Assembly: GCA_951799425.1 (NCBI GenBank)
Contig: OX637391.1
Span: 45,355,069-45,419,068, forward strand
Source of the DNA: Ilex aquifolium
Taxonomy: Eukaryota; Streptophyta; Magnoliopsida; Aquifoliales; Aquifoliaceae
DNA: 64,000 nt
Direction of reading: 5' to 3'
Shown: positions 1,911 to 40,673 of the stretch, in pieces
Position numbering within the stretch: the first letter of the stretch is position 1
Layout of the letters: every line of letters starts with the position of its first letter
Program-made: the position numbers and the translations under genes
The notes under the pieces: generated by a model
Told to the model about the DNA's origin: nothing
What the model saw: only the letters and a program-made list of their open reading frames with translations
Database searches by the model: none

Positions 1911-1945
1911 CCAAATCTACCCGTCGGTCCGACAAAGGCACTTAA

Positions 1946-8830: not shown

Positions 8831-9019
8831 CCGTAAAGAAGCTTCTTTACTTTTTTTCTTGTAACTTGGATTTTTCCAATTCTTGTCAGTTGAGGGACGC
8901 AAAGCCCTCTTTTTGTTGAATGTAAGAACATCTCTTTTTTATTAAGTGTCTGTCTCTTTCTTTTTTTTGTAAGTGTATCATTCATAGAGGCCGAGGTGGC
9001 CTAGGGATAAAAGTTTCTA

Positions 9020-9505: not shown

Positions 9506-9726
9506 GCAAGCTTAACAAAAATAAGCCTTCATTTCTAAAAAATAGTACTTTTTCAAATTCATTACATTTCAAAGCCGGAGTACAACATTTATCTTCATAT
9601 CTTCCAATTTGTATGACCCAGAACGTCCCACCGATACAACTCTGTATGGTTCTTCCTAATTTGGTCTCATCTTTCCATCGGCCGAGTCACGAGTGTTCTC
9701 GAGTACTCTTCTGAGCACTAGGTTGT

Positions 9727-12978: not shown

Positions 12979-15060
12979 CCAAGTCTATCCCATTATTATG
13001 TTGTATGGTGAATCGAAGTCAATTGCCATGAACTTCGTGTCGATCATGATGGGCTCGATAGTAACTGGCAGAGTGATCTTCCCTAGTGGCAAGGTGAATG
13101 ATCCGTTGAGCCCGACAAGGGGTGTCTTGATAGCGGTAAGATCCTTGGATCCAAGGCCCATTTACTTCAACACATTGAGGTACAACACCTCCGAGGAGCT
13201 TCCTCAGTCCATCTGAACCCTCTTGACATCAAAGCCCCCAATTCGCAGGGTTATGATCAAGGCATCCTCATGGGGGAGGACCACGCTTTCTAGGTCGGCG
13301 TTCAAGAAGGTGATGTCACATTGATCCGTCTGGGGTCTCTTACTTGTCTGACCCTCATATTTCTCTTTCACCTTCCTAGCAAAGGCTACCCTATTCAGGT
13401 CGAACCTGAGAGTATTGGTTGTCATCCGCTCTAGGGGGTAGACGTGGATGATGTCGATGACATTGCTGCAGACAGGAGCGTGGTCATTGGCGGCGTCTGT
13501 CTCCCTTGACGCCTCCTCCTCGATGTACTCTTTGAGGTGTCCCTCTTATACCAATTTCTCTAGGAAGGACTTGTACACTCAGTAATCCTCGGTGAGATGC
13601 CCACGTCCTTGTAGTACGAACACCTGACATTCTGATTTCTCGTCGACGGATCACCTTGCATCTTAGGCGACCACTTAAAGAATGGCTCCTCCTTGATCTT
13701 ATGCAATAGCTTGTAGATAGACTCCTTGAACACCGTATGGATCCATTTAAAGGAGTTCCCCGACGTAGGGATCAAACATTTCCTAGGAGGGCCTCCCTCT
13801 TTCTCCTTGTCATTCTTTTTAGGAGCCGAAATTTTTCCTTCACTCCCCGCCAACTCGTCTTCAATCTAGGAGTACTTGTTAATGCAGGCCATCAGTTCAC
13901 CGGTGTCCGTTTCATCAAAGACCTATAAAGATTTGTGTCCCGAGACAAGCTGAGTCTGAAAAAATCTGCCGCCATGACCTCGGAACATCCTTTTACTTCA
14001 TTTACCTCCTCCCAATAGTGAGTGGCATATTAGCGGAGTGTTTCACCTTCTTTTCACCAGAGGGTCAACAAGGATCCGACATCCTTAGGGCGTCTGTTCC
14101 CCGTGAAGAACCACACGGAGAACTGTCTGGTCAACTCCCTTTACGACCTTATGTTATTTGGCAGAAAGGTCTCAAACCACTTCATGGTCGTATCGCCTAG
14201 GTTCATTGAAAACACTCGGCCCAACAACCTATGATCTGAGTTATACAAGGACATCATTTGCTTGTATTGTTGGAAATGAGTCTTCGGGTCGGAACGTCCA
14301 TCATAAAATTTGAATCACGGCACCACAAACTTCTTTGGTATCTTCATCTCCATGATATTTTGTTGTGAATGGTGACAAAATGGCTTCGTCATCTGCGTCC
14401 ACGTAGGGGGTGGACTTATCCATCCTCATGGAGTCCAACTTGGACTTGAGGTCTCCCTTATCCTTGTGGTGGCTCCTTTCACCTTTGCTGCGACAAGCCG
14501 CATGCTCCCCAGTTCCGCCATCCTTGAGGGAGAGGGTTGACCCCTCAACGAACTCTTTCACGCCCCCTTGCCCAGATAGTCAAAGGCCTAGCCTTTTTAG
14601 CCGGGACCTTCGGGTCCTATCCATTGGCCCTCAGGCATTTCGAAGTCTTAGAGCCTCTTGCTCCGCCACTGAGTCGGGTCCTCAAGTCATCCGCCCCCAC
14701 CTCCTTGACAGAGGGCTCCTTAGACGGTCGTAAGTTTCGACAAACTCCGCCGAAGAGTGCAAACTCATCGAGTTTGTTGAGGACGTTTACATTGTTCTCG
14801 ATTTTCCTTAGACAGTCTCCCAACCGCTCCTCAATGAGGTCAATAAGTTGACGGGACAAGGGCCCGTCTCTTTCACCCCCCGAGACTCAGTTTAGTTTGA
14901 TGAGTTCTTTCTCTAGAGTGGACCGAAAGCTCCTTGTTGGCGCTTTTAACGTGATCCTCCATTCTCGAAATGGATGGAGCTGGGATGTCCATGTTCTTTG
15001 TTGAGGACCCTTTTTTTTCAAATGTGTATTCACCATGGTCACTGTCACCGAAAAACATGG
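12979..15060 (-). mobile_element. Gag and protease region of gypsy element 1
   Basis: On the minus strand the gag region starts near 15060, just inside the primer-binding site. Towards 13560 it includes EEPFFKWSPKMQGDP and NVRCSYYKDVG, common in Tat-type gag C-termini. The protease lies near 13000-13425, with ALIITLRIGGFDVKRVQMD ahead of a GSSSEVLY-like retropepsin active-site block. The region is broken. Confidence 0.75.
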
Positions 15061-15061
15061 T

Positions 15062-15085
15062 CGCTTCCCACAAACTGAGCCAAAT
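15062..15085 (-). other. Primer-binding region of gypsy element 1
   Basis: Directly inside the upstream LTR, the minus strand reads ATTTGGCTCAGTTTGTGGGA. This resembles the TTTGGCGCCGTCTGTGGGAA primer-binding context usual in Tat-type elements. Its position fixes the inner LTR boundary at 15086. Confidence 0.6.
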
Positions 15086-15921
15086 TGTGCGCAATGATTC
15101 CTGCACAATAAATAAATTGACAAATCTCTCTATTGGTGAACTCGAGGTTACTTGGAAAGTCAAAGGTCCTATAGCAAATGAATGTTGAGAAATCATATAA
15201 GGAGTGGTGATGAATCTTTTTCCAGCTGTCTGGTTACTCTTGACTTATCACGATGAGTCATGTCACTAAAAAAGAAAGGTTAGAAGGGGGCCAAAGTGTT
15301 TTTCAGCGTGCCCCCTTCGACGAATACCTTCGACTTGCATTTGTGAGAGATACTTATACCTCTTTGGAGTTAATCATTGCGGACTGCTAGGTCCCTTGGA
15401 GGGAAGGCTCTTCGTTGGCTCATTTGGAAGACAATAGGTGGTGCTCAGTCCTCGAACAGTAAGCCTTCCTTTTCACGTGGAAGAAGTTTATGTATTTAAT
15501 ACTCGGACCTCTGTGCATTTAATGCACGGTTTCCTAAGTTCGCCGATCAATAAATGCACCTCATTCTTCTGAAGGGAACATTTAATGTGACCTGATTATG
15601 GTTGCGCATGCGCAAGGGCATTTTTGTTCATTACCCCTCATGGGGTCATGTCTTCTGTGCTTTGTACTTCATTCTCTCTTTTCTATTGGTCATTGACCTA
15701 CCCTCCCCACCATTCTAGTTGCCTTGGGAAGGGAAAACTGATGGTTGACAACCAACTCTGCTCCCAAGCCACGATAACCATCAGAATACTAGTCATACTT
15801 TGCTTGCAATAGACACTGAACGCCTAGGACACGTGTCTGATAGAGGACCCTTGAAATGGCACAGACGTCGAGGACACGTGTTGAGCGGTCGAGGCTCTGA
15901 GGGCCCCTGGTGTCGAGGACA
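15086..15921 (-). repeat. Upstream LTR of gypsy element 1, inner part
   Basis: Homologous to 4705-5540 of the downstream LTR, starting TGTGCGCAATGATTCC. It stops at 15921 inside a GAGGACACA motif where CACTA-1 begins, and resumes at 29935. The three bases ACA at 15919-15921 are repeated at 29935-29937. Confidence 0.85.
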
Positions 15922-15934
15922 CACTACAAGAATT

Positions 15935-16400
15935 ATGGGAAAATCCGACATTTAATTTCCGACGTTTGACTTAAACGCCACTAAAATTGGCGTTTGTTTA
16001 TACGCACTAAAAATTATTAAAAAAAAATTTAGCTTAATTTCCGGCGTTTAAGTCAAACGCCACAAATTTTTAATTAAAAATAATAAAAAAAAAATTTTTT
16101 CTCCCCCAACATAAACTTAATAAAAAAAATTCACCTAATTTCCGGCGTTTAAGTCGAACGTCACAAATTCTTAATTAAAAATAATAACAAAAAATTTTGC
16201 TTAATTTCCGGCGTTTAAGTGAAACGCCACAAATTCTTAGTTAAAAATAATAAAAAAAAAAATTTCTCCCCCAACATAAACTTAATAAAAAAATTTTTTG
16301 TCTAATTTCCGGCGTTTAAGTCAAACGTCACAAATTCTTAATTAAAAATAATAAAAAAAAAATTTTCTTCCCCCAACATAAACCTAAATTTTCCCTAATT
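15935..16400. repeat. Left subterminal repeats of CACTA-1
   Basis: About five units, each with a CGGCGTTTAAGTCAAACGCC-type imperfect palindrome. They are separated by ACAAATTCTTAATTAAAAAT, A-runs and CTCCCCCAACATAAAC. Such repeats near CACTA ends normally bind the element's own DNA-binding protein; here that role is inferred. Confidence 0.75.
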
Positions 16401-16458
16401 CACTCTCTCAACTTCTCTTGCGACTCCTCACCAGCTCTCTCTGCGACGACTCTTCCCC

Positions 16459-16542
16459 GGCTCTTCTCAGGCGACGACTCCTCACTGCCTCTTCTCAGGC
16501 GGCGACTCCTCACTGCCTCTTCTCAGCCGACGACTCCTCACA
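16459..16542. repeat. 28-bp tandem repeat, three copies
   Basis: Three nearly identical 28-bp units built on CTCTTCTCAGGCGACGACTC plus CTCACTGC. They lie in a C/T-rich leader-like region of CACTA-1, upstream of the captured RRM exons. Confidence 0.7.
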
Positions 16543-16709
16543 CATTTCTTGTTGTCTCTATGTGTGTGTGAGAGATAGAGAGAGGCGGTAGGTCTGTGTA
16601 AGACAATGCAGACGAGTTTATAGTGGTGCTTCATCTTCATATGTGTATTTATAATTTCTTTGAATAGTATGTTGTGGATTTGTTGTGATTTTTCATTGTA
16701 TTGTTTCAG

Positions 16710-16999
16710 ACGAGAGCAGTACAAGTAGGTCATGTATCAGATCTAGCCAGTGAGAGAGAAATTCACGAGTTTTTCTCATTTTCCGGTGTAATCGAACACA
16801 GTGAGATCCGTCGGTTCGTTGTTCTTTCATCTTTCTACTCTTCGTATATCTGTGTGTGGTGTATTTTAAGGTTTTGAGTGTATTAAGACTTGATTTTGGC
16901 TGTTGTTTATGTATGGAGTGTAGTGAGTCTGAGCAATCGAAGGCTACATTTGTCACATTTAGAGATCCAAAAGCGCTTGAAATAGCATTGTTGTTATCG
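16710..16999 (+). pseudogene. Captured RRM exons, BPA1-like
   Basis: Two exons, 16710-16813 and 16924-16999, joined by a GT/AG intron with matching phase (CG|T). They encode RAVQVGHVSDLASEREIHEF and FFSFSGVIEHSEIRR, then a second segment containing KATFVTFRDPKALEIALLLS. This is the N-terminal half of an RNA-recognition motif as found in plant BPA1 (binding partner of ACD11) and related proteins; KATFVTF corresponds to RNP1. The first exon follows a consensus acceptor (TTGTTTCAG). The rest of the RRM and the protein are missing, so this is a transduplicated fragment inside CACTA-1, not a complete gene. The assignment to BPA1-like proteins rests on memory of the family. Confidence 0.6.
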
Positions 17000-17772
17000 G
17001 TAATTCCTCGATTTTACTTTTAACTTTTGCTGGAAACTATGTACCACAGCCTGAGATTCAGGTAATTCTCTCCATTACTGATGTAGTATTTTTTCAAATA
17101 TTGAAATGAAATTTATATTGTCGGATCATGCAGGTGCTGCCTAGCTTTGGACCAAATGAAGGTGGTAGCACTGGTAGTTTGGTTCAGCCATGTCTCTTCC
17201 CAAAGTTGTACATGAATCACTTTAGGTTGGTTGCAACAGAGCACTAGATACCTGAAATTGGAGATTTTTATTTTGAGTTTGCTGTTGGATTTGAGTTAGA
17301 TCTCAAGACTAATGCTTAGGCAGATGGTTTAGCCAAAGGGAATTTGAATTCCTTACAACTAAGGGGGAATTTTGTTCCCTTTTGTCCTTCAGTTTGTTAG
17401 TGGAACGAGGATAGGTTTTTACTGTTAAGTGCTTTCTATTTTGATTCCTTGTTTATTCTCCAGAAAGTTCCTTGTTCATTGTCATTACTGAAGGAAGATC
17501 ATTTTTTTCCTTGTTTCTTTTTATGTGGATGGAAGTCTGAGTAGTTTCCTATGCAAAAGAATAAACACGATGATAAAAGGACAAGGACGAGAAATGTTCA
17601 AACATATTTGCATGCTTAGCACTTTAAAAACCTTTGTTATCAGATGCCTAATCTGATCATTATTTGTAAACATATCAGCTTTTGGTGTAAGCACAAGGAC
17701 CAGTTGAGGTCCTTGTGCTTGTTATGCTAAAGGCCACCCATAATTTACAATCTCTTTGGTGTTCTTCTGTAG
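17000..17772. other. CACTA-1 interior, intron-like
   Basis: Mostly intron-like sequence between captured exons. A short segment near 17130-17225 could be another degraded exon, but it has an in-frame stop soon after and I do not recognise it. Confidence 0.4.
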
Positions 17773-17894
17773 TTCCCAAGGAGTAAATCTAGTCATTTGG
17801 ATGAGCTAGGAATGCAACCTGTCGATCCAGGTGCAGCAAGAAAGGAACCAAATCAGTCGTTTAAGCTTACCACAAGAGAGGACCCTGTTCCAAT
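17773..17894 (+). pseudogene. Captured exon of unnamed gene, 5' part, split by CACTA-2
   Basis: The acceptor TTCTTCTGTAG precedes an open frame that includes SSHLDELGMQPVDPGAARKE and QSFKLTTREDPVP. The frame is interrupted by CACTA-2 at 17895 and resumes at 28362. If one copy of the 3-bp target duplication is ignored, both sides stay in frame. I do not recognise the parent gene. Confidence 0.6.
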
Positions 17895-17919
17895 CACTAC
17901 AACAAAAAGCATTTTTGGC

Positions 17920-19530
17920 GACGGTTTTTTTTGCGACGTTTTTAAATTTGTCGCAAATAGTTACTATTAGCGACGATTTTTTAATTTCGTCAAAAATTTC
18001 AGTTTTGGTAAATTTTTTAGCGACGTTTTTAAAAAACGTCGCAAATAAACATTTTACTTAAAAAAAACTTAAAAAAAAATAACAATTTAATGCACTTTTG
18101 GCGACGTTTTTCAAAAACGTAGCAAATAAACATTTTACTTAAACAAAAAATTAAAAAAAAATATCAATTGAATTGACTTTTCGCAACGTTTTTAGGAAAC
18201 GTCGCAAATAAACATTTCACTTAAATAAAAAATTTTAAAAAATATCAATTGAATTGACTTTTCCCGACGTTTTTAAAAAACGCCGCAAATACACATTTTA
18301 ATTAAAAAAAATTTTAAAAAAATAACAATTGAATTGACTTTTGGCGACGTTTTTAAAAAACGTCGCAAATAAACATTTTACTTAAATAAAAAATTTTAAA
18401 AAATATCAATTGAATTGACTTTTGGCGACGTTTCCAAAAAAGTCGCAAATAAACATTTTAATTAAATAAAAAATTAAAAAAAATATCAATTAAATTGACT
18501 TTTCGCGACGTTTTTAAAAAATGTCGCAAATAAACATTTTACTTAAAAAAAATTTAAAAAAAATGACAATTTAATTCACTTTTGGCGACGTTTTTGAAAA
18601 ACGTCGCAAATAAACATTTTACTTAAATAAAAAATTTAAAAAATATCAATTGAATTGACTTTTCGCGACGTTTTTAAAACACGTCGCAAATACACATTTT
18701 AATTAAAAAAACTTTAAAAAAATAAGAATTGAATTGACTTCTGGCGACGTTTTTAAAAAACGTCGCAAATAAACATTTTAATTAAATAAAAAATTTTAAA
18801 AAATATCAATTGAATTGACTTTTCGCGACGTTTTCAGAAAACGTCGCAAATAAACATTTTAATTAAATAAAAAATTAAAAAAAATATCAATTGAATTGAC
18901 TTTTCGCGACGTTTTTAAAAAACGTCGCAAATAAACATTTTACATAAAAAAAACTTTAAAAAAAATGACAATTTAATTCACTTTTAGGGACGTTTTTAAA
19001 AAACGTCGCAAATAAACATTTTACTTAAAAAAACTTTAAAAAATGTTTAATTCACTTTTAGGGACGTTTTTAAAAAATGTCGCAAATAAACATTTTACTT
19101 AAATAAAAAATTAAAAAAAAATATCAATTGAATTGACTTTTCGTGACGTTTTTAGAAAACGTCGCAAATAAACATTTTCTTAAATAAAAAATTTAAAAAA
19201 ATATCAATTGAAGTGACTTTTCGCGACGTTTTTAAAAAACGTCGCAAATACACATTTTAATTAAAAAAACTTTAAAAAAAATAACAATTGAATTGATTTT
19301 TGACGACGTTTTTAAAAAACGTCGCAAATAAACATTTTACTTAAATAAATTTTTTTTAAAAATATCAATTGAATTGACTTTTCGCGACGTTTTCAAAAAA
19401 CGTCGCAAATAAACATTTTAATTAAATAAAAAATTAAAAAAAATATCAACTGAATTGACTTTTCACGACGTTTTTAAAAAACGTCGCAAATACACATTTT
19501 ACTTAAAAAAACTTTAAAAAAAATATCGAT
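17920..19530. repeat. Left subterminal array of CACTA-2: ~21 palindromic units of ~81 bp
   Basis: Each unit contains a near-perfect palindrome of the form GCGACGTTTTTAAAAAACGT followed by CGC. It is then followed by AAATAAACATTTTACTTAAA, A-runs and TATCAATTGAATTGACTTTT. Period is close to 81 bp. CACTA elements carry subterminal binding repeats, but an array this long and regular is notable. Confidence 0.85.
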
Positions 19531-21430
19531 TGAATTGATGAAATTGGATGTGAATTTGATAAATCGAATGTTAATTTAATGAAATTGAAAGTCGATTTGA
19601 TGAAATTACATGTTAATTTGATGAAATTGAATGTTAATTTAATAAATTGAATGTTAATTTGATGAAATTGAATGTCAATTTGATAATTGGAATGTTAATT
19701 TACTGAAATTGAAAGTCGATTTGATGAAATTACATGTTAATTTGATGAAATTACATGTTAATTTGATGAAATTGAATGTCAATTTAATGAAATTGAATGT
19801 CAATTTAATAAATTGAATGTTAATTTGATGAAATTGAATGTCAATTTGATAAATGGAATATGAATTTCATGAAATTGAAAGTCGATTTGATGAAATTACA
19901 TGTTAATTTGATGAAATTGAATGTCAATTTAATAAATTGAATGTTAATTTGATGAAATTGAATGTCAATTTGATGAAATTACATGTTAATTTGATGAATT
20001 TGAATGTTAATTTGATAATTTGAATGTTAATTTGATGAATTGGGTGTTAATTTAATGAAATTGAAAGTTTATTTGATTGCTTTAAATGTTTAATTGAATG
20101 TTAATTTGATAAATTGAATGTTAATTTGATGAAATTGAATGTCAGTTTGATAAATTGAATGTTAATTTAATGAAATTGAAAGTCGATTTGATGAAATTAC
20201 ATGTTAATTTGATGAAATTGAATGTCAATTTAATAAATTGAATGTTAATTTGATGAAATTGAATGTCAATTTGATTATTGGAATGTTAATTTAATGAAAT
20301 TGAAAGTTGATTTGATGAAATAACATGTTAATTTGATGAATTTGAATGTGAATTTGATAATTTGAATGTTAATTTGAGGAATTGGGTGTTAATTTCATGA
20401 AATCGAAAGTTTATTTGATTACTTTAAATGTTTAATTGAATGTTAATTTGATAAATTGAATGTCCATTTGATGAAATTGAATGTCCATTTAATAAATTGA
20501 ATGTTAATTTGATGAAATTGAATGTCAATTTGATAAATGGAATGTTAATTTCATGAAATTGAAAGTCGATTTGATGAAATTACATGTTAATTTGATGAAA
20601 TTGAATGTCAATTTAATAAATTGAATGTTAATTTGATGAAATTGAAAGTCGATTTGATGAAATTACATGTTAATTTGATGAAATTGAATGTTAATTTGAT
20701 AATTTGAATATTAATTTGATGAATTTGGTGTTAATTTAATGAAATTGAAAGTTTATTTGATTACTTTAAATGTTTAATTGAATGTTAATTTGATAAATTG
20801 AATGTCCATTTGATGAAATTGAATGTCCATTTAATAAATCGAATGTTAATTTCATGAAATTGAAAGTCGATTTGATGAAATTACATGTTAATTTGATGAA
20901 ATTGAATGTCAATTTAATAAATTGAATGTTAATTTGATGAAATTGAATGTCAATTTGACAATTGGAATGTTAATTTAATGAAGTTGAAAGTCGATTTGAT
21001 GAAATTACATGTTAATTTGATGAATTTGAATGTTAATTTGATAATTTGAATGTTAATTTGATGAATTGGGTGTTAATTTAATGAAATTGAAAGTTTATTT
21101 GATTACTTTAAATGTTTAATTGAATGTTAATTTGATAAATTGAATGTCCATTTGATGAAATTGAATGTCCATTTAATAAATCGAATGTTAATTTCATGAA
21201 ATTTGATTATATTAATGTTAACTACTTGAATCTGAATGTTAATTCGATTAATTGAATGTTAATTTTGTTTTAATTTGATAAAGTAAATTTTAATTGAATG
21301 AAGTTAAATGTTAATTTGGTGTTGATTTGATAAATTACATGTTAATTTGATATAATTGAATGCCAATTGATTAAGTCTGAATGTTAATTTGATGAATTAG
21401 GTGTTAATTGAATGAAATTGAAAGGGTATG
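19531..21430. repeat. Minisatellite with 342-bp higher-order period inside CACTA-2
   Basis: Monomers of about 17-21 bp (GAATGTTAATTTGATGAAAT and variants GTCAATTTGATAAATT, AAAGTCGATTTGATG) fill the region. A distinctive variant, GGGTGTTAATTTAATGAAAT then TTTATTTGATTACTTTAAAT, recurs at 20041, 20383, 20725 and 21067, exactly 342 bp apart, and in altered form at about 21398. This shows amplification of a multi-monomer block. There is no coding potential. Confidence 0.85.
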
Positions 21431-21624
21431 ATTTAAATGTTTACTATCTGCGATGTTTTTTGAAATTTGTCGCAAATTTTCTTTTCGACAATTTCATTTG
21501 CGACGTTTTTGGAAAACGTCGCGAAAAGGTGATTCCCTCCCAATTTTTTTTTGGGCCGAAAGATGGCGGGAGGTGGATAAAATTATTATTTGGTGACATT
21601 TTATATTCGTCACAGAATTCATTT
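21431..21624. other. Edge of the repeat zone with GCGACG palindrome
   Basis: A single further CGTTTTTGGAAAACGTCGCG hairpin near 21500 separates the minisatellite from the leader-like region. Nothing coding is seen. Confidence 0.4.
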
Positions 21625-21652
21625 ATACTCAAAACGACGTCGTTTTGAGTAT
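21625..21652. promoter_or_regulatory. 28-bp perfect palindrome centred on GACGTC
   Basis: The sequence reads identically on both strands from ATACTCAAAACGAC to its mirror. The centre ACGACGTCGT contains the ACGT core bound by plant bZIP factors. It sits just upstream of a C/T-rich leader-like region, a plausible core-promoter position, but function is inferred only. Confidence 0.5.
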
Positions 21653-23514
21653 TTAATTACGTCCATTTGGCCCTAGCAGCCCTTCCTCTTCACATTCCCC
21701 TTTCCAACAGTCTCTCTCTCACTCACCGTCTCTCTCTCTCTCTCTCTCTGCCTCTCCCTGTGAGTCGAAGCCACAAGCCACCGCTGGCCCTCTCTCTCTC
21801 TGTCTCACTGAAGGTCCACAGCACATAACCGACAAGGCTTCATCGTAGGCTTCACCGAAGATCACTGAAGCTTCACCGAGAAGGCTCCAGAATCGAACAA
21901 ATCGATCGACCAAAATAAACAAAGCTCTTTCTTTCAAAATCAATCGATCAAAATCGAACAAAGCTGCTTCAAATTTTCACCAAAACTGAGGCTCTACCGT
22001 CTAAGGCTCCACCGTCTGAACTGAGGCTCCACCGGCTGAAGGCTCCACGGTATGGTCTCTTTCTCTCTCTCTCAGAATGGGGAAGGCGATACAGCTCTAT
22101 CTCTCTCAGATTTGTGGCTTCAGATTTGTAGCTCATCTGGGTTTATGTGTTTAATGTTGCCGTATGAGGCATTTGGGGATGCCATTAATTATCATTATTT
22201 CTTCTGGAGAGATGAGATTTACACGTTATAGATCATATATTTTCGGTGCTGTTTGACTGAATTTTAATGTTATATTTTTTAATTGATTTGAATCTTGCCT
22301 CTGCTGAACCTTTCGCATTGGTCACCCAATCGAATTATGATTCTGGGAATTTCGATATTCTTGCTTCAAAGTTCTTTGTAGAGGAAATTTAGTGTTGTTT
22401 TCATGAAATCTAGGTGCGAGTTAGAGAACCTTTCTGTCGATTTGTTGCAATTTCGTTCAATTTTTCTTGCTGATATGTACCCTTCTGATATGCAGGTAGT
22501 CTCAATTTCAAAGACTCTGTATGCCTCTCTAGCTGCTTGCAAATTGTTGGTATACTCTCTTTGGTTTACTAAGAGAATGATGTTATCATGTAATTGGAGG
22601 TGGTTTTGCCCGGAGAACCTACTTGTTTTTATATGAAACTTTTTTGGTATCTCATTTCTATTATCTAAGATTCTTTGGTCTTTGTTCCTTTCCATGATGA
22701 GAGAATAATAACATTCATACCTATTGTGGTTGCTGTAAGTAGCTATACTATTTGATTTTGTGAATTGTGTTGGGGAAAGAAATGTAGTTTATGCAATCTA
22801 GATTGGTTTTGAATTGCACGAGAATTTCTTTGATGTCCTGTAGGTTTGCAAGATCTTTGTAGGAGCTTGGTATGGAGTAGTGTAAATTGTTTATTTTTAT
22901 GGAATTGAGACTACCTGCCCTTCTTTTGTTCAGCCTTATATGAGTCTATGTATTCATATAATTGTACCAGTTTCTCAAATACAATCTTTCTCAGTTTTAT
23001 AAATTATTAAAAAAAATCAGATTTTTGTTGCTTCTTTGACTTGATTCAACTTTTCTGTTCCCAAGTTGCTAAATTAATAGTTTCAAGAAGTAGGCTCTGT
23101 ATCCTGGGAATTTATTTATGCTAACAAATCACTTCTAGTAGATTTTAATTATCCTCTTGAAATATTCTGTTCTATAAGAAGTTTGTGAACTTAAGTAACT
23201 GTAGACATAATGGGAATTTTTACTCATATGCTAATGCCGACATAGCTCTTTGGTGGATTTGATGGGATTGAAAGAAAACAAATTAAATGAGTTTCTTATT
23301 CTAAAGGATCTTGTGCTCTTATTTCGGAAGAGCACGTGGGAGTTTTACGTATTAATTCTGTTTGGACTATGGCAATATGGATGCTGGGAAAAGGTCTTTG
23401 ATGATGGTTTATGTATTGGTTGTATACTTATATGTAAATGCATTAATCTACACATGTACTTTTTTGTATGCATCTTTGATTTTTCTATTTGATTATTTCT
23501 TTTTGGTTGAGCAG
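21653..23514 (+). other. Leader-like and intron-like interior of CACTA-2
   Basis: It begins with long CT-rich tracts (21710-21800) and short repeats of GGCTTCACCGAAG / GGCTCCACCG(TCT) to about 22050, resembling a plant 5' untranslated region. Long T-rich, intron-like sequence follows. A short open stretch near 22494-22560 could be an exon, but I cannot identify it. Confidence 0.4.
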
Positions 23515-23832
23515 GTGGTATCTCCTTTTCCACCTTCTGAGAAGATTGGGATCAAATCAGTACAAAGGGAGTCTGAAGAAATTCTTCCCATGAAGCAGAT
23601 GAAAATGGACTGGGTTCCTTACATTCCTTTGGAAGACCGGTATGAATCTCCCTTTCGTTGCCTAATTTTCTTTGCTTTTTTTGTCTTCTGAATATGGAAT
23701 GTTCCTCATTGTATGAAGCTTTGAAATCTTTTTTTATATAGATGGTGCTTGTGTAATTTCATTGTACTGCAGGGACTCTCAAGTTGAAAGACTTAAGTCA
23801 CAAATTTTTATTTTGAGCTGCACACAAAGAAG
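23515..23832 (+). pseudogene. Captured two-exon fragment of an unnamed conserved gene
   Basis: Exons 23515-23639 and 23773-23832 are joined by a GT/AG intron of matching phase. They encode a segment containing SEKIGIKSVQRESEEILPMK, then KMDWVPYIPLEDRDSQVERL and KSQIFILSCTQRR. The composition and clean splice sites look like a real conserved plant protein, but I do not recognise which. Further exons of the parent are not visible nearby. It lies in CACTA-2 upstream of the TSR1-like exons and on the same strand. Confidence 0.55.
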
Positions 23833-24173
23833 GTATTAGTCCATTCTCTCCTCGTATATCCTCACAACACCCCCAACCCCTCCTCTCTCTCTCTCTCTAT
23901 GTGTGTGTGTGTGCTTGTACAACACAGTGAACACACAGTGCTTGAATTCTTTGAAATCAAAATGAAAGTTGGGAATTAGACTCTAATCAAAATGGTTCCA
24001 AACTTGTTTGTTTTGCCAATATTTTTAACACCTGTTTCTGTCCCCATGTATGTGAAATTCTGCGTTTAGACCCTAAGATGCTGGATCTTAATTGTTTAAA
24101 AAATGAATTTTATATGAGCCCTGAAGTAAGGTGTTGAAATTTGTTTGTCACTTAAGTCATTTGAGAATTTCAG

Positions 24174-24460
24174 GTTGATTTGGTATCTGATGATTGCAAT
24201 TCTGAAACATGCACCCTCCTCCTCACTGGTTATCTCCGTGCTCGCAATCTTTCAGTGGATCAGTTGGTAAGTTGTTCGGCCTTTGGCATGCATTTTGTGG
24301 CTCATTGTTGTTTTGTACATTCTAATCTTTTTTGGACCAGGTTCGTGTTTCAGGTGCTGGGGATTTTCAAATGTGCAAAATTGAAATTCTCAAGGATCCA
24401 TGTCCTTTGAATGTGAGAAAAGGGGACTTCATGGATTCGGATGAAGTACATGATGTGCAG
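24174..24460 (+). pseudogene. Captured TSR1-like exons (pre-rRNA processing)
   Basis: Exons 24174-24266 and 24341-24460 with consensus splice sites, both in the same phase. They encode VDLVSDDCNSETCTLLLTGY followed by LRARNLSVDQL, then VRVSGAGDFQMCKIEILKDP followed by CPLNVRKGDFMDSDEVHDVQ. This matches the central part of plant TSR1/BMS1-like proteins (20S pre-rRNA accumulation, 40S biogenesis in the nucleolus), whose GYLRxxxLSVNQLVHVSGxGDFQ stretch I recognise. Only two exons are present, so it is a transduplicated fragment. One change from the usual LVHVSG to LVRVSG is visible. Confidence 0.65.
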
Positions 24461-24789
24461 GTATAGGTTGCTTTCTGAAAATAATGAAGTGATAGTGTAA
24501 AACTGATTTTCCAACTGATTTTCCATTTTCCAGCTACCATCTTATCAAATATGATACCTCGAGAAATTACAAGCTCATTTTTTTTTGGGTTGTATTGACA
24601 ATCCTATGAATTGATATTTGTCAACTTTTTTATCAAACTTCTTCCTTTTTTGTGAAGGGATTAATGCATATGCAATACATTCAAATATTGATTGTTTAGT
24701 GTGAAGTCATTTGCCTTTAAGCATGCTTCATGCCATTTCCATATATGGTGATTATCGAATTGTAAGTTGTATTCTTATTCATTTCTCCC

Positions 24790-26560
24790 TCGCTTTAATA
24801 ATTCATGACTGGAGTATAGATGAATCTTCACCGCGATATGTTCCTAATATCTTTAATTTTTTGTCACTTTGTCTCTCTACCACAGCTTTAAACTCAAGAA
24901 ATTTGAAGAAAGCTTCTGATTTTTGTTTGAGAAAATAAAGCGACAACATCCAGGTATAATAATCAACAAATATAAGAAAATATATTTTGTTGCCAACTGA
25001 TGGTGTTCTGTTTGCCCTCAAATACTAGCATGCACTAATTCCAATGATGTTTTAGCTCTCCAAGAAATATTCGAGAATGGTAGCCTATGCATTTTCCCAT
25101 AAATACATTCTTCGCAGATTTTATCAATTTTTTCAATATATGATGTCATGTACCATACTTTTTTGTTTGAGCAATCTCAGGCCTCTATAATTTAAGTGTC
25201 CATATCTCAAATGCCATAAATAGGAATCACCGATTCTTCACTTTGAAGTGCAAGATTTTCATTTAGTGGCATAATAAGATGAAAAACTTTATTTTGGGTC
25301 ATTTGAACCTATGTCACTATTTAATTACGCATATCCTTTCTGAAGCAATTTTCCAACACTTAATAAATTTTGAGTTAGCCTTGGAACATAAAGAACATCA
25401 TAAACAAATTTTATATTACCTCCTTTTATGTAGACGACAATAACTCATTTGCCTTAGAGATTTTGCAGCCTTCCATCATCAAGTTTTACTTGTAAGAAAC
25501 TTTGTCATCCAGCTCCGTAATCTTTTGATTCCTGGCCATATGATTGTTGCATCCATTATCCAAATACCATGTATTTTTTTATTCTTTGAATAACTATACA
25601 AGAGAGCATGGCATCTCTTTCCTTCGCTTCTGAAAAATTTGCCTAGCAATCTCATTGTGAGTGATTTAATACTTTTGTAGTTTTGCATCTGAATGTACAA
25701 TCTTTGGCAGTATAATTGAATCTTTTGCAAATAATACAGTGAGAAACAATTATCGTCAAAATTACTTTTGATTGGTGTAACCTCTTTCTTTATCTCGGGT
25801 TTGAAATGAATTTTGTCTTCCACAACCTCTCCATATTGACCTCTTTTTTGAAATTTGCCCCTTAATTTTCTTTGCACCGTTTATACGTTCTTTCCTTCTT
25901 TCAATATTGACTTTGGATTGAAATGTTTGTTCCAAATATTGGTTTGTAAACCTACTCATCATTTTCTCGTGTGCCTCTAGAGAACTCATTAACTCATGCC
26001 AAGTCAGTTTTGACAAATCTTTAGCTTCCTTGATTGCTATAATGATATGTTTGAATCTTGATTGCTATAACGATATGTTTGAATATTGCAGCTAGGCTCC
26101 ATAGGACTTTTTCAACAATTTTCTTGTCTGAAAGAGTATCTCCATAACTTCTGATGGATTCATTTTCTTTCATTGCTAGATTATCAAAATCTCACCATAG
26201 AGTTTGAAGCTTGATAGAGATTATCTTATCAAATCTTTCATACACAATCTTCAATATCTTTCATGTCTCCTTTGAATTTTTTGCACTCAAAATTCATAGA
26301 AAAATAGTTTTCCTAACCCTCGTTGAATATGAAGTAGCTCCACTGCATCTCTTCTTTTTGGTCTCCTTGTATTTTATTTAATTTGCATATTTCCAATTTG
26401 CTAATTATTCATCATATATATGTGGTGCTTCAAATCCAGATTCAAGTATATCCCACAAATCTTGTGAAATAAATAAAATCTCCAATTGGATTCTCCAATA
26501 CTTATAATTGGAATGAGGGCTCGCTCAGAATTGAACATGAAAATATTAGCTTCTATTGTA
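24790..26560 (-). mobile_element. Ty1/copia gag-protease-integrase fragment, broken
   Basis: Minus-strand reading from right to left shows a copia gag (UBN2-type, with LTWHELMSSLEAHEKMMSRF), a protease-region block (GIWIMDATIIWPG) and the start of integrase with YFLIFVDYYTWMLSLYFLKQ. No reverse transcriptase, RNase H or LTRs were found. It is a partial, much-decayed copy inside CACTA-2. Confidence 0.7.
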
Positions 26561-27016
26561 GTGGTTTATCTTAAAAGGCTGTGAGCTTATGCTAACTGAC
26601 TTGTGTAGTGCTGGATTGCATTTGCTTCGCAGCATTAGAACAAAAATTTCTATATACAATGCCCCTTTATTTGCACAATGTAGATTTGATATAATTAGAT
26701 CTTTGAGTTGCTCAAACAAATTTTAAAATGGGTGGTTAGGGTGTTCTGTAAGCAAGTGTTCCACATGCCAAATGTTCGTAAATATTTCATATGTGGCATA
26801 GGCGAGGAGGGAACTCCATTTGTATATGACAAGCATCAAGTACAGAGACAATTTCTGCTGTTTAATAATCACTCTGTGTTGTGTTCAGGTTGATATGTAT
26901 AACCAGTAAACCAAAAATCCTATGTTTGCTGTGTGGCAGCACTATTTTCCTATGTTTGCTTTGTGGCAGCACTAAATAGGATTGTTTGGGTTTTCTAATT
27001 TGGTCTCAAATTGCAG
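26561..27016. other. CACTA-2 interior, intron-like
   Basis: T-rich sequence with short frames between the copia fragment and the next captured exon. A direct repeat, CCTATGTTTGCT-TGTGGCAGCACT, occurs at about 26920-26975. Nothing coding is recognised. Confidence 0.35.
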
Positions 27017-27085
27017 GCTCAACAGCTGAACAAAGACATATTTGAGACCATATACTACCAGATTTTAAAGGCTTCATCTGGAGCA
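27017..27085 (+). pseudogene. Captured exon fragment resembling ribonucleotide reductase large subunit
   Basis: After the acceptor AAATTGCAG the frame reads AQQLNKDIFETIYYQILKAS. Class I ribonucleotide reductase large subunits (RNR1) carry an almost identical QLNKDIFETIYYHALKAS helix. Downstream sequence diverges from the family at once, so only this exon or part of it was captured. The match is short but distinctive; the parent assignment is moderate. Confidence 0.5.
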
Positions 27086-27499
27086 CTGAATTATTTATGG
27101 AAGGAGGATGTGGTTGGATATGAAGCAGTTGCATGGAGCTTGCTTGAGGCTTGGTTGTTGATCAGTGGTTTTCTGTTATTTTGACAGATTGCTACTTCTC
27201 AAAATTCTGTTTAGTTTTGATTTAGATGACTGTTGGAGCTGTTCAAGTTTAAGAGACATTAAATGTAATTAGAGATGGTTTAAATCCTCTTGAAGGATTA
27301 AAGTCATTTTTTCAATTTTTAGAACTTCATGTTCTTTGATTAATTCTTGTAATTCATTCTTTTTTGGAAATAAATTTTTGTTTTTTTTAAAAAAAGATGT
27401 GAAATGTATTAATTGTATTAGTTTTTTATTGAACACAGGTATTATTGGTGTACAGGTGAAAAATTATCATTTTTTATGAATTATTTTTAAAAAAAAAAA

Positions 27500-28350
27500 A
27501 AAATTTTGCGACGAAATTAAAAACGTCGCAAAAAATTGAAGAAAAAATATTTTTGGCGACGACTTTTATACATCGCTAATAATTAATTATAGTAATTTAC
27601 ATATTTTTTTGTACAAATTTATTCGCGACGATTTATTTTACGTCGCTAAATATTAATTAAATTATTATTTTTTTATATTTTTATTTTCGTAAAAATTTAT
27701 TTGCGACGATTATTTTTACGTCGTCATAAATTAATTAAATTATTATTTTTTACAATTTTAATTTTGTAAAAAATTATTTGCGACGATTTTTTTTCGTCGC
27801 CAAAAATTAATTAAATTATTTTTTTTACATTTTTTTTATATAAAAATTTTTTTGCGACGATTTTTTTACGTCGCAAAAAATTAATTAAATTATTTTTTTT
27901 ACATTTTTATTTATGTAAAAAATTATTAGTGACGATTTTTTTACGTCGCAAAAAATTAATTAAATTATTTTTTTTTACATTTTTTATTTATGTAAAAAAT
28001 TATTAGCGACGATTTTTTTACGTCGCAAAAAATTAATTAAATTTTTTTTTTACATTTTTTATTTATGTAAAAAATTATTAGCAACGATTTTTTTACGTTC
28101 CAAAAAATTAATTAAATTATTTTTTTTTATTTTGTTACGCTGGTGGAATAGATTTTTAGCTACTTTTTTTTAACTTTTGGCTACGTTTTTTTTTCGTCGC
28201 AAAAAATTTTTTTTGCGATGAAAATAATTTTACGTCGCAAAATACTTTCTGCGACGAAGACGCGACGAAAAAAAAACGTCGCGAAAAATAATTTGCGACG
28301 ATTTTTTTGAATTTAGCGACGAAAAAAATCGTCGGAAAAAACGATTTTTG
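27500..28350. repeat. Right subterminal array of CACTA-2
   Basis: About a dozen units of roughly 70-75 bp, each with a hairpin GCGACGATTTTTTTACGTCG followed by AAAAATTAATTAAATTATTT. Unit sequence differs from the left array although both share GCGACG and CGTCGC arms, so the element ends are asymmetric. Confidence 0.8.
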
Positions 28351-28358
28351 TTGTAGTG

Positions 28359-28636
28359 AGTGCTAGACAATAACACTGATCGTGGTAGTAACATGGACAG
28401 TAAATTGATTGATCTTAATGCAAGGCCTCAACGGATCCATGGGGAAGCTTCAAATGATCAGGTATTCATCTTTGACAGGAGTTCTATGTATATTTCTGAT
28501 GTTCCATCTTAATTAATCAGGAATTGTTTTGCTTCCTTTTATATTAAAGGAACAGGGAGTGGATTTTCTAAGTGGTAGTAACCACGAATCTGCAAGTGTG
28601 GTTCCGGGTGGATTCTTTAGAAGAGAGAATGAGTGA
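28359..28636 (+). pseudogene. Captured exons of unnamed gene, 3' part with stop
   Basis: This continues the exon split by CACTA-2 with LDNNTDRGSNMDSKLIDLNA and RPQRIHGEASNDQ to a GT donor at 28462. The final exon, 28550-28636, encodes EQGVDFLSGSNHESASVVPG and GFFRRENE before a TGA stop. The acceptor is ATATTAAAG. The parent gene is not recognised. It looks like the C-terminus of a plant protein rich in Asn, Ser and Arg. Confidence 0.55.
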
Positions 28637-29469
28637 TGATTGAGATATATGCTTGCTTCTGATTAAATTTTCTCTCGTTTTTCTACTTCTTGTTCCACAG
28701 GGGGCAGTGGTTGTAATGCTGTTGATGGTTTCTAGGAAGATTTTATTGTTTATGAGGGTGAATTGTTCAGAAGGATGTTTGAGATCATTTATAATGTTTG
28801 TAGCAGTGCACAAAATTGTAAGGCCTTGCTACTTTAAAAAAGGTTGTCTAGTGTGGAAAATATATTTTCTTGTTAGTTAAACATCTTTGCTTGTTGGGTT
28901 TTCTGTTTGGATTGAATTTGTATTATTGGAAATACAAATATGTTCATTTTTATTGTTTTATGTGGAATTCATGTGTTAATTGATATGTCGCATTTTGATC
29001 ACAGACAGTATACTATTCTCTTAATGGTAGATTACACTCCATGAATGGGTGTTGATTTGTTTGAAACATGTCATTTTTATTGGTTGGAGGTTGAGGTCAG
29101 TTCAGATTGACGCTGTGAAAACTGTTGGTGGCCTGTTTTACTAGTGTTATTGGTTGGAGGTGGCTGTAAGAGTGATGTTTCTGCTGACTGTTTTGGGAGC
29201 TGGCCTGTAATCTTTTGATTTGGTTTTCTGTTTGTTTTTGTTTCTGGAATAGGAGGCCTTATGTGGTTTTCCTTTTTGCTTCTTGTAACGACTGGTTTTG
29301 TGTTAAAAAAAAGAAGAAGATGGAAGCACTGATGCAGGGGATTACCTGTGCTTCAAAAAAAGAGGACTATTGTTTTTGATAATATGGACTGATTTGGTCT
29401 TTGTTGTCTGAAGTACAGGGGTAGAAAAGGGTGGTTGTGGTGAAGCCTTTGTGCTGGAGTTGTTGTTTT

Positions 29470-29501
<32 letters not shown>

Positions 29502-29624
29502 GGTATTTTTAGTAGCTTGACTATCAATTTTTCATCAGGTGGAAAATCTCTGAATATTTAAAATTACTATTCTAGTGAAAATGCAATTAGTTAGGTTTTA
29601 TTATGAAAAAAAAATATTAATTAT
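28637..29624. other. CACTA-1 right interior
   Basis: 3'-UTR-like and AT-rich sequence after the captured stop codon, with a TA microsatellite near 29484-29500. No gene was recognised. Confidence 0.4.
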
Positions 29625-29934
29625 CATTACCGGCGTTTAAATAAACGCCGGAAACCAGAAAATCATAAATAATAATTACTGACGTTTAAATAAACGCCGT
29701 AAAATAGCTCTGGTCACCGAAATTTTACAAGGAAGCCGTCGATTAAATAAGCGTCGTTTTAGTGTTTAGTAAACGTCACTTTAATTTTTGTGGCGTTTAA
29801 TTATACGCCGGTAATTTTCCCGACGGAGCTTTCGACGTCGTTAATAGCAAACGTTAGTAATAATATTTTGTGACGTTTATTTACATTTTACCGGCGTTTA
29901 TTAAACGTCGGTAAATATCTTTTTTCTTACAGTG
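29625..29934. repeat. Right subterminal repeats of CACTA-1
   Basis: Several TTACCGGCGTTTAAATAAAC and GCCGG-type palindromes up to the terminal TTTCTTACAGTG. They share the GGCGTTTA core with the left end of the same element, which supports pairing these two ends. Confidence 0.75.
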
Positions 29935-30197
29935 ACATGTGTCAACATAGGGATGCTCTGGGTTCTCAGTGCAGTGGACACGCGTCAATCGCAGAGAGCT
30001 CCAGAGGGAACACATGTCATGGACACGTGTCTATGCATGGGGCGTCCGGGGGTACTGTTGTGCCGAGGACATGTGTCGCTCACAGGGAGATCTGAGGGGA
30101 CTCATGCCAAGGATGCATGTCAATACTTGAAACGCCCACGTTTATCATGCCGAGGGCACGTGTCGACTCCATGTTAATTCACTTAAACGTCCCATCA
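29935..30197 (-). repeat. Upstream LTR of gypsy element 1, outer part
   Basis: Continues the LTR interrupted at 15921. It corresponds to about 5547-5808 of the downstream LTR and ends at ACGTCCCATCA. It contains further GGACACGTGTC-type motifs. Confidence 0.85.
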
Positions 30198-30686
30198 GTT
30201 TTCGTAAGTGAAAAAATGATATTCGTGAGAGGTAAACATCTACAAGTAAAGGGCGCCCTTACAAAAAAAACTTTAGGCACCTGTAAAAAACAAAAACATC
30301 TCACTGTGGGGAAATTAACTTGTTAGTTCTTTACATAAGCTTAATAACAGTGAGGTTTTAGTACCTCAATAAGTCCCGAGTCAACCAAAGTACTCAAAGT
30401 GTAAAGGTCGCAGTTGCATGATTAGACTTTCTTTTATAGTCTCTCTCTCCAGGTAAAGTGTGCCTAGTGTATGTTGAATTCGAGATGATTAGTTGGTGAA
30501 ATGTAAGGATTCCCTCTTTCTAGAAAGAAGACTGGTTATTTGATGACCATTGACAACACGGCCGCCGTTGGATATTTCTTAGGAGATGGAGGATGGAGGA
30601 AGACTTAAGACATGTTATAGTGCTGTACTGTTATGGCCAGATACGAAGTAACTGTGTAGATAGATCCCACAAAAGTATTTAGCAAA
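30198..30686. other. Upstream region of VQ-2, with a block shared with 43.95 kb
   Basis: 30325-30450 aligns at roughly three quarters identity with 43945-44060. Shared blocks include TTAGTTCTT, AAGCTTA, AATAAGTC-CGAGTCAACCA, ACTCAAAGT and AGACTTTCT. This marks an old duplication of flanking DNA around the VQ genes. Other sequence to the ATG at 30687 is not shared with the intact VQ gene. Confidence 0.5.
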
Positions 30687-31036
30687 ATGGGTAACCATAG
30701 GAACAAGGATTATCAGCTGCACTTAAAGGGTAAAAATCCCACCAGAGGCAGTGAAGAAGGGATCAAGGTGAAGTACATATCAAGCCCTGTGATGGTGACA
30801 GCCAATAACGCTTCCGAGTTCCGAGCAATCGTTCAAGAACTCACCGGCCAAAACTCCCACATCAGAAACCCCGGCGATGCAGACACAATGGTAAGCAATA
30901 AATCTAGCCAGATTCATAGTCATGGAACTTCAATTTCACACCCGGTTTTCAAAAAATGGAGTACATGAATACTTGAACACTCTATCATCCTTGGAGATTA
31001 ATAAAGATTTGTTCTGGGGAGAAGTTTCAGAGAGCT
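30687..31036 (+). pseudogene. VQ-motif gene copy with C-terminal frameshift (VQ-2)
   Basis: The ATG at 30687 opens a 93-residue frame ending at 30968. Residues 1-80 closely match the intact copy at 40674, including VKYISSPVMV and the VQ core FRAIVQELTG at residues 45-54. One extra A in an A-run near 30955 shifts the frame, so the conserved C-terminal NKDLFWGEVSES block is lost from the product although its DNA persists to about 31035. Homology to the other copy continues through the 3' flank to about 31210. A truncated protein with an intact VQ motif could still be made, so it may not be fully dead. Confidence 0.75.
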
Positions 31037-31210
31037 GATCCAGCTTACATTTTCATCGCCAGTAGTGGTTTTATCTTTCAACAGTTATTACCTTGGAGTT
31101 CTTGTTGATTTTATTCCTGCTTATAATTCCTAGTAAAGAATAATAAATCCAGAAGATGTCCAGTACTGCTTCATACATAGAGCTATCCTTATATGTCAAG
31201 TTATACAATT
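31037..31210. repeat. 3' flank shared by VQ-2 and VQ-3
   Basis: Matches 41046-41215 downstream of the intact VQ gene. Shared blocks include TTTTCAACAG, CTTGGAGTTCTTGT, ATTGCTTATAA, ATCCTTATA and AGTTATACAATTCTGATCC. The duplication that made the two genes therefore included at least 170 bp of 3' sequence. Confidence 0.65.
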
Positions 31211-33460
31211 CTGATCCTCTGAAAATTATAATTGCTTCATACGTAGGGCGATGATAATCGCTTGTCCGGTTAAGTGATGGGCACGGGTTTAAATTTTGTA
31301 GAGCTTTTAGAGTAGCCAAGGAGGGCTCTCGTGATGCAGGGTAGGGTGAATAAAAATCGAGATTAAATAATAAAAATTTTAACGTGTTGATTATCACAAT
31401 AATATTAGATTAAAATTGTCAAGAGCTTTGTTGATTTACGAAGAATACTAAGTCAATTAGAAAAAAGAAAAATTTAACCTCAGTTTATTTTAAATAATCA
31501 AAAGCTGTTGAATTAGTTTTCTCTACACAATATAAATACAAAATCATAATTGCCCTAAATTACTAAGATAACCAAGTAAATAAGTAATATTACAAAATAC
31601 CCCAAATAACGGAATAAAATAAAAAAAGATCTAAAAAATGTCATAAATGTCATTTTTGAGCTTAAAAACGACGGAATGAAAGATAATTTTTTTAATCTTG
31701 CTCAGATCGTCGAGAGCTTTTTGGAATGAGGTATTCTGAAGTTTTTTGACACTATTAGTCAGAATCAGTCCTGATTGGCATCTGATCAGCATTGCTTTCG
31801 ACAATCTTAATTTGTCATGTAATCAGTGAAATCAATAACATCATTATGCTAATGACACATCATTTAATCTCATTTTTTTGTATAATGACATGGTGTTCGG
31901 GGATTAGAAATTGGATCAGGAATACGTGTGTGTGGTTAAGGGTTCGGATGCCAGATAGCTGAACTATGAACAGATAGCCAGAAATGTGTAAGTAAGTGTT
32001 TTGGTGATGATTGAGATGTTAAAAGAAGTGATGAGCATGATCGGTGAAGAGAGAACAAGTCGTGATGCGCACTCGAGACAGTTAGGGTTAGTACGTACCA
32101 GGTGATCAGGGATGTGGGGGTTACGTTAACTGGTCATTTTGGTATTCAAAAATTTAATTAGTAATTTTTTAGTGTTTGATTTACTGTATGTGTAATTTAT
32201 TTATTTTTTAAAAATAATATTTTTAATAAATTCTTAAAATTTGGCCAAAAGGGTGAAATTACTAAAATGCCCTTAGAAGCATCTCCATCCTTCTAGCATG
32301 GCAAGGTGTCGGCCGGAAGGCTCTCCAAGGCAGCATGTTTTCCACGGTGATGCTTGAAGTTTAGTCAGCAAGTGCTAGAAGTTAAAAGCTTGGAAAAATC
32401 GTGGGAAGAGAGAGAAAGAGAGGACAATGATTAGGCTCTCAAAACAAGTCTAAAGATGTACTGTAGAGTGACTTATAGGGGTGAGAAGAGGGGGCAGTCG
32501 AAATAAAATTTTTGGAAGTACGGTTGCTGGAGGTTGAAGATAAAGTGGATTAAGAAGACCATTGGACACCCTGATGGCGCGTGAGGTCTCCTCCGATGTC
32601 CGATGGACCTCTAGTTAGTGCCAAAAATTTTGTAAAGTCTGTGTGGAGGTCTCAGTAAAATTTGTTGTCCGGTATTTTTGCCTATCTATTGGATGGCCAA
32701 TCAAAGCCTAGGCTGGTTTGAAACCAGCCAAACCAATACCCGAATCAATATCTGGTGTAAAATGTCAACTTTTGCCATCCGGCAGCAATTTGTCCTACTT
32801 TTGGTTTACCAGATTTATAAATACATATGGTTCAAGGAGCAACTCAACAGTATACAAAAATCCTTCCACATGGTGGCACAAATTTGGAAACATAATGATA
32901 GTAAAATTAGATATACAAAGTACAAGATACAATGAAACAGTAATTTCTAACGAGCTCGGCAGCTTGTACTTTGATCATTTTACAGGCTTTAGTCGAGCAT
33001 TGATGATTCCACTTCAGAAAAAGCTTTCAGTCTACTCCTTTTAAGTGGCTAAAAACAAATTTGACTTGAATAAAACAACTTCGATATGTATTCTTAGGAA
33101 GAATGACAAGAGTGCTACACTTTTTATGTGATCAAAAGAATGACAACTTTATACAAAATATGAATTATAAAGCATCATGCCTTTTTGCTTAAAAGCAAAA
33201 TCAAAAGATAAAATTTTGTAAGTGTAAAATTGCAAAAACACATGGAAACAATTCATGTATGGTCCACTCATACACAAATATTCAAACTTACAGTATATGA
33301 TTGACCAATGATTTTAAAAGATTCTATATTGAAAAGTGGTCTGCACTGTAGGATATGATTTAGAAAGCAAGTAGACATAGCAACAATATTTGGAGTAGAG
33401 AAGAGTAAAAAAGGGCCTTAAATGTATGCAAAAACCGACATGGCTTGTAACAATTATTAA
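31211..33460. other. Intergenic stretch, possible LTR remnant
   Basis: No gene was recognised. The region around 31900-32560 is less AT-rich and contains GTGAAATTACTAAAATGCCC, a phrase common in plant gypsy LTRs, but no paired copy, primer site or coding domain was found. The remainder is ordinary AT-rich DNA with scattered short frames. Confidence 0.3.
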
Positions 33461-40600: not shown

Positions 40601-40673
40601 CGTAAAAAAATCACTAAGCAGCCATCCCCCACCCCCACCCACCCACACACACAAAAAAAAGGAAGTTAAGAAA

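Follow-up and report, generated by a model that had tools for sequence, protein, structure and literature searches.

Two nested, gene-carrying CACTA transposons, probably of different families, in a gypsy long terminal repeat of Ilex aquifolium

We analyzed a 64,000-bp stretch of Ilex aquifolium DNA (assembly GCA_951799425.1, contig OX637391.1, positions 45,355,069 to 45,419,068 of the forward strand), hereafter called the window. A first-pass annotation had described positions 15922-29934 as two gene-capturing CACTA elements, with CACTA-2 inside CACTA-1 and CACTA-1 inside a long terminal repeat (LTR) of a gypsy element. As shown below, the locus very likely holds two non-autonomous, gene-carrying CACTA transposons of different families, one nested in the other, the outer one lying in the gypsy LTR. 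The structural features are listed with their evidence in brackets; TRF stands for Tandem Repeats Finder.

About 4705-5801, minus strand: gypsy left LTR (its 3′ LTR), in which the target site is empty (BLAST and global alignment against 15086-15921 plus 29938-30197)
5802-15085, minus strand: gypsy internal region with broken open reading frames (ORFs), namely reverse transcriptase, RNase H, a second RNase H and an integrase zinc domain (Pfam)
15086-15921, minus strand: gypsy right LTR (5′ LTR), portion ahead of CACTA-1 (LTR alignment)
15919-15921, no strand: target-site duplication ACA of CACTA-1, left copy (sequence and empty site)
15922-29934, plus strand: CACTA-1, 14,013 bp (3,549 bp once CACTA-2 is subtracted), with ends CACTACAAGAAT and CACTGTAAGAAA (ends, empty site, motif counts)
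16010-16387, plus strand: CACTA-1 left subterminal repeats with GGCGTTTAAGTCAAACGCC palindromes (self-BLAST, motif counts, TRF)
17895-28358, plus strand: CACTA-2, 10,464 bp, with 14-bp inverted ends CACTACAACAAAAA that match perfectly, flanked by AAT and AGT (ends, motif counts)
18015-19538, plus strand: CACTA-2 left subterminal array, 81-bp unit × 19, with the GCGACGTTTTTAAAAAACGTCGC palindrome (TRF, motif counts)
19535-21422, plus strand: AT-rich minisatellite of 1.9 kb in CACTA-2, unit of about 21 bp, 82.5 copies to 21203 (TRF)
27544-28137, plus strand: CACTA-2 right subterminal array, 75-bp unit × 7 at 27596-28127, in the opposite orientation to the left one (self-BLAST, TRF)
29611-29934, plus strand: CACTA-1 right subterminal repeats and terminus (motif counts, TRF, end alignment)
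29935-29937, no strand: target-site duplication ACA of CACTA-1, right copy (sequence and empty site)
29938-30197, minus strand: gypsy right LTR, portion beyond CACTA-1 (LTR alignment)

The host of CACTA-1 is a Ty3/gypsy LTR retrotransposon, with an LTR pair and with reverse transcriptase, RNase H and integrase zinc domains in order. Among the 10 ORFs scanned, RVT_1 (3e-9), RT_RNaseH (3.1e-11) and RVT_3 (4.9e-5) scored above the Pfam cut-off, and Integrase_H2C2 (0.0017) fell below its own. The two LTRs were compared with the right one taken without CACTA-1 and without one ACA. They were identical at 896 of 1047 aligned bases, with a Kimura two-parameter distance of 0.164 (BLAST, global alignment). 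No gap interrupted the alignment in the roughly 50 bp before and 70 bp after the CACTA-1 site; its long gaps, of 45 and 61 columns, lay elsewhere. The left LTR showed a single ACA where CACTA-1 has ACA on both sides. Because the partner LTR shows this empty site, both ends of CACTA-1, at 15922 and 29934, are fixed. Furthermore, CACTA-1 lies in one LTR only and is therefore younger than the gypsy insertion. The empty site agrees with the ends, coordinates, ACA/ACA duplication and gypsy-LTR location that had been assigned to CACTA-1. At 10680-11661 on the minus strand, the gypsy element holds a pair of domains of the RNase H type (RT_RNaseH and RVT_3), an arrangement also found in the Tat/Ogre lineage. 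A tandem-like repeat whose copies are spaced by about 79 bp and are 76% similar was also seen at 9014-9503, between the gypsy pol and the left LTR.

Next to the empty site, the subterminal repeats carry the case for CACTA-1. As an end control, 14 end bases were compared for all CACTR end pairs lying 0.5-20 kb apart in the window (n = 2,691). The CACTA-1 ends matched at 10 of 14 bases and were accompanied by an exact 3-bp duplication, a combination reached by five pairs, CACTA-1 included. It is thus not above chance and no proof by itself, and we rejected it as the sole proof. The motif GGCGTTTA, on the other hand, occurred in five copies in each 500-bp terminus, against shuffle means of 0.05 and 0.03. 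CACTA-1 is therefore established by the empty site in the partner LTR together with subterminal repeats common to both ends. Its CACTA/CACTG inverted ends, 3-bp duplication, and direct and inverted subterminal repeats are features of the CACTA (En/Spm) superfamily. A 3-bp duplication and subterminal repeats are given as CACTA features in PMC8978399, and the 3-bp duplication also in PMC4938662.

The CACTA-2 ends agreed at all 14 bases, the best value among the 2,691 pairs. GCGACG was present in 29 copies in the left and 20 copies in the right terminal array, compared with shuffle means of 0.54 and 0.77. Subterminal repeats had been reported for both elements, and both motifs indeed lie far above their shuffle means. 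CACTA inverted ends with direct and inverted subterminal repeats at both ends place CACTA-2 in the CACTA superfamily as well. The AT-rich minisatellite (19535-21422) is located inward of the left subterminal array. CACTA-2 splits an open exon of CACTA-1 whose frame stays open across the insertion, with 40 codons before and 34 after. The perfect ends and the split exon bear out the nesting of CACTA-2 in CACTA-1.

The cargo of both elements was laid out as follows.

16421-16541, plus strand: CT-rich leader-like sequence of CACTA-1, 28-bp unit × 4.4, holding both CACTA-1 copies of GCGACG (TRF, motif counts)
16606-17061, plus strand: RRM gene fragments, with start at 16606-16611, exons 16710-16813 and 16924-16999, and a truncated fourth exon 17034-17061 (splice-site inspection, Pfam)
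17134-17244, plus strand: further exon-like stretch to a stop, no Pfam family (splice-site inspection)
17773-17894, plus strand: exon of the second CACTA-1 gene, first part, broken by CACTA-2 (frame continues across the insertion)
21711-22048, plus strand: CT-rich leader-like sequence of CACTA-2, a TC repeat then 15-bp repeats, limits set by eye (TRF at 21711-21749 and 21989-22048)
23515-23832, plus strand: two exons, 23515-23639 and 23773-23832, mutually in frame, without convincing family (AG/GT borders, frame)
24174-24460, plus strand: TSR1/BMS1-type gene, exons 24174-24266 and 24341-24460, intron kept (AG/GT borders, Pfam, PDB)
24806-26565, minus strand: copia-type gag-pol piece, no LTRs noticed, outer limits set by eye (Pfam)
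27017-27181, plus strand: last exon of CACTA-2, stop-ended, its first 21 residues resembling the ribonucleotide reductase large subunit (PDB phmmer)
28359-28461, plus strand: exon of the second CACTA-1 gene, second part (open frame)
28550-28636, plus strand: last exon of the second CACTA-1 gene, with stop (splice-site inspection)

The layout comprises 11 exons (one split by CACTA-2) and the start ATGCAG, all on the plus strand; the borders were picked by eye for their fit to AG/GT, without a control. Across both elements, AG was found at 10 of 11 acceptors and GT at 8 of 9 donors. The splice sites noted earlier were thus recovered apart from two, namely the exon at 17034, which lacks an acceptor of its own, and the donor after ATGCAG, which reads AC.

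The host origin of the spliced fragments held up unevenly, and it is statistically secure only for the TSR1/BMS1-type exons of CACTA-2. These exons encode part of an AARP2CN domain (Pfam 1.3e-13), and against solved structures they matched a TSR1 homolog (6g18, 1.1e-7) and then Bms1 (5oql, 5.7e-6). We presume TSR1 rather than BMS1 as their source, partly from general knowledge besides the better match. In CACTA-1, the RRM exons reached an RRM_1 E-value of 5.6e-4 at 20.2 bits, 0.5 bit short of the Pfam cut-off of 20.7; BPA1-like proteins are presumably the nearest kind. Host coding DNA, by which a Pack-CACTA is recognized, is therefore found in CACTA-2, and CACTA-1 offers only this RRM_1 match just below the cut-off. 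A tentative origin from ribonucleotide reductase is suggested for the 27017 exon. Its best PDB phmmer match was weak (E 0.22 over 21 residues), all four chains among the matches listed were reductase large subunits, and no Pfam or NCBIfam match was obtained. For the exons of the two remaining sources, Pfam, NCBIfam and PDB offered no convincing match. The best ones, to a nucleoprotein (E 0.056) and a sodium-translocating reductase subunit (E 0.075 and 0.091), were rejected as unconvincing. When CACTA-2 is spliced in order, its first two exons shift the TSR1-type exons out of frame, and the TSR1-type exons run in frame into the 27017 exon. Rfam gave no matches over the whole window at gathering scores.

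The copia-type piece, which was absent from the first-pass annotation, lies in CACTA-2 after the TSR1-type exons and ahead of the last exon. Two of the eight ORFs scanned there matched: Pol_BBD at 1e-8 (25328-25444) and gag_pre-integrs at 1.9e-6, 0.4 bit below the cut-off (25136-25237). The assignment to copia is our assumption, and the piece may have been captured by CACTA-2 or inserted into it.

No transposase family was detected by Pfam in 43 ORFs and 6 exon translations of both elements, consistent with the earlier remark that no transposase is visible. Length was the main criterion for choosing the ORFs; a number of others equally long, the shorter ones and the arrays at 18.0-21.4 kb lay outside the set. 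In viral contigs, neither the CACTA-2 end combined with the GCGACG pattern nor the CACTA-1 repeat gave any match. A looser CACTA-2 pattern gave three matches in genome contigs, all bacterial and each with one end and no partner end in the stretch available, and these were taken as chance.

We compared the termini by local alignment of 400-bp ends against 200 shuffles. The alignment between the two ends of the same element was equalled by none of the 200 shuffles, for CACTA-1 and for CACTA-2 alike; for the eight cross-element alignments, between 6 and 170 of the 200 shuffles did as well. Among the regions counted (19540-21599 of CACTA-2 lay outside the count), GGCGTTTA was confined to the CACTA-1 termini. 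GCGACG, which is plentiful in the CACTA-2 arrays, was absent from both CACTA-1 termini, so that the two motifs share no termini. In soybean, six base differences in a subterminal motif were read as two CACTA families, and such motifs were seen as domains for TNPA-like proteins (PMC2613891). The authors of that work also ask whether the binding protein of one family could act on a family with a different motif (PMC2613891). CACTA-1 and CACTA-2 are probably members of different CACTA families, each likely to need its own family's transposase. Since the main subterminal motifs differ, shared mobilisation by one transposase, as proposed by the first-pass annotation, is unsupported. That annotation had named ends of different families among genome copies as an outcome that would overturn its view; the motif and end comparison within the window, rather than genome copies, now points to such a difference.

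The events can be ordered as follows. The gypsy element was inserted first, and CACTA-1, with parts of two genes (an RRM gene and a second one), then entered its LTR, making the 3-bp duplication. CACTA-2, with the TSR1/BMS1-type exons, other exon pieces and the copia-type fragment, sits inside an exon of the second CACTA-1 gene; its entry into CACTA-1 may predate or postdate the arrival of CACTA-1 in the LTR. As either element retains ends and subterminal repeats of its own, and neither yielded a transposase, each was presumably mobilised in trans by a transposase and a repeat-binding protein (TNPD/TNPA type) from its own family. The gene pieces may have been gained by the Pack-CACTA route, in which neighbouring related insertions move as one unit. 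Faulty gap repair is an alternative route of acquisition. The cargo is most likely decayed and functionless.

Several observations weigh against this reading. CACTA-2 is flanked by AAT and AGT, alike at two of three bases and so no exact duplication; of the two target duplications reported earlier, that of CACTA-1 is confirmed and that of CACTA-2 is not confirmed. A decayed trace of transposase could have been missed, as the ORF set was incomplete. A search that covered viral and prokaryote collections only turned up neither element a second time, and the parental genes of the cargo pieces were not seen. At the LTR borders we assumed, the gypsy element showed no 5-bp duplication of its own. 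As for the separation into two families, one cross-element end alignment was matched by no more than 6 of the 200 shuffles. Both CACTA-1 termini contain a single copy of a shorter core, CGACGTTT (shuffle means 0.05 and 0.07), which has 29 copies in the CACTA-2 left array, so the two families may be distantly related. With GGCGTTT also found once in the CACTA-2 left terminus, the motif sets are not wholly separate. Similarly, GCGACG appeared twice in the CACTA-1 leader, within its 28-bp repeat (shuffle mean 0.05), and once at 1-15000 and four times at 31000-64000 of the window (shuffle means 1.05 and 0.85).

The exact duplication of CACTA-1 beside the inexact flanks of CACTA-2 is what would be expected if CACTA-2 were the older insertion. 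It is conceivable, though rather unlikely, that the nest moved as one, with CACTA-2 already residing in CACTA-1 or in the captured gene before the jump into the gypsy LTR, and a 14-kb composite being mobilised. A CACTA element of 20.5 kb is on record (PMC2613891). However, one differing base in three is weak evidence for dating, and the nest was not seen a second time. The unequal flanks would also suit a CACTA-2 made of two adjacent insertions of the same family that enclose native DNA, in effect a capture under way as in the Pack-CACTA model (PMC8903248), from which we would expect unequal outer flanks. Yet the exon frame runs straight from 17894 to 28359, so no host-exon DNA appears to lie inside CACTA-2. 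Although the frame alone would fit by chance in one third of cases, we consider this explanation very unlikely.

A single outside transposase acting on both elements, combined with composite transcripts from the stacked same-strand exons, seems to us improbable. In its favour, the ends of both elements have CACTACAA in common, CGACGTTT is present in both (at low copy), and the soybean authors raise the question of cross-family action of a binding protein (PMC2613891). The unlike main motifs, the cross-element alignments, which 6 to 170 of 200 shuffles equalled, and the six differences that sufficed for two families in soybean (PMC2613891) argue against such sharing. Composite transcripts would be in line with the plus-strand orientation of all exons laid out, and the exons of soybean Tgm-Express1 are spliced into chimeric mRNAs (PMC1947982). 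In the present locus, however, the outer exons are separated by the 10 kb of CACTA-2, which include a last exon ending in a stop. That both CACTAs form a stacked exon store transcribed as a composite unit, with the in-frame join of the TSR1-type exons and the last exon giving a new protein, is extremely unlikely. We thus favour two gene-carrying elements of different families, nested in the gypsy LTR.

Pack-TYPE transposons were reportedly the subject of a 2019 study by Catoni (as cited in PMC8903248). In maize, Pack-CACTAs carry coding DNA of several loci per element, and capture through neighbouring insertions has been proposed (PMC8903248); Pack-CACTAs are also reviewed in PMC13317346. Like the Pack-CACTA and Pack-TYPE elements of Arabidopsis, maize and rice (PMC8903248), the elements described here have CACTACAA ends, no transposase found in the ORFs scanned and exon pieces from several sources, and the 3-bp duplication is shared by CACTA-1 only. 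In contrast to them, two elements with different subterminal motifs are nested here. Soybean Tgm-Express1 is likewise one CACTA with pieces of several unrelated host genes and their introns, but it lies in a gene intron and its chimeric mRNAs have been shown (PMC1947982), whereas the present elements lie in an LTR and are known from sequence alone. On wheat chromosome 3B, 145 CACTA-captured genes were counted and 30,199 nested insertions reconstructed (PMC4290129). The same combination of CACTA gene capture and heavy nesting of transposable elements is seen here, and two CACTA families of wheat hold the same captured gene; that work (PMC4290129) is an annotation survey in a grass, and ours dissects a single locus. 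Among the papers listed and passages covered on Pack-CACTA, nested capture, nested Pack-MULE and Tgm-Express we noticed no nested Pack-CACTA pair, which is not proof of absence, and found no mention of the sequence cactacaacaaaa in literature text.

Gene-carrying CACTAs, their chimeric transcripts and the nesting of transposable elements are thus already in print, and this locus is a further example that reveals no new mechanism and no new system. What makes it a tidy dissected case is the empty site in the partner LTR. The locus suggests that two CACTA families of the same plant both take up host exons, and it could help to test whether each family captures genes on its own.

Other features were observed in the window beyond the nest. 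The segments 30671-31226 and 40658-41206, about 10 kb apart on the same strand, are 83% alike and probably represent a tandem duplication next to the nest; the latter encodes a VQ-motif protein (Pfam 5.4e-8). An ORF at 45993-46568 contains a plant mobile domain (PMD, 3e-21); this domain and the VQ motif mark the window as plant DNA. A zf-RVT domain (1.1e-7) at 53091-53462 is probably a LINE-type reverse-transcriptase remnant. A Q-rich ORF lies on the minus strand at 58612-59121; it had no Pfam match up to E 0.1, and we take it to resemble a GRF-interacting factor (AN3/GIF1).

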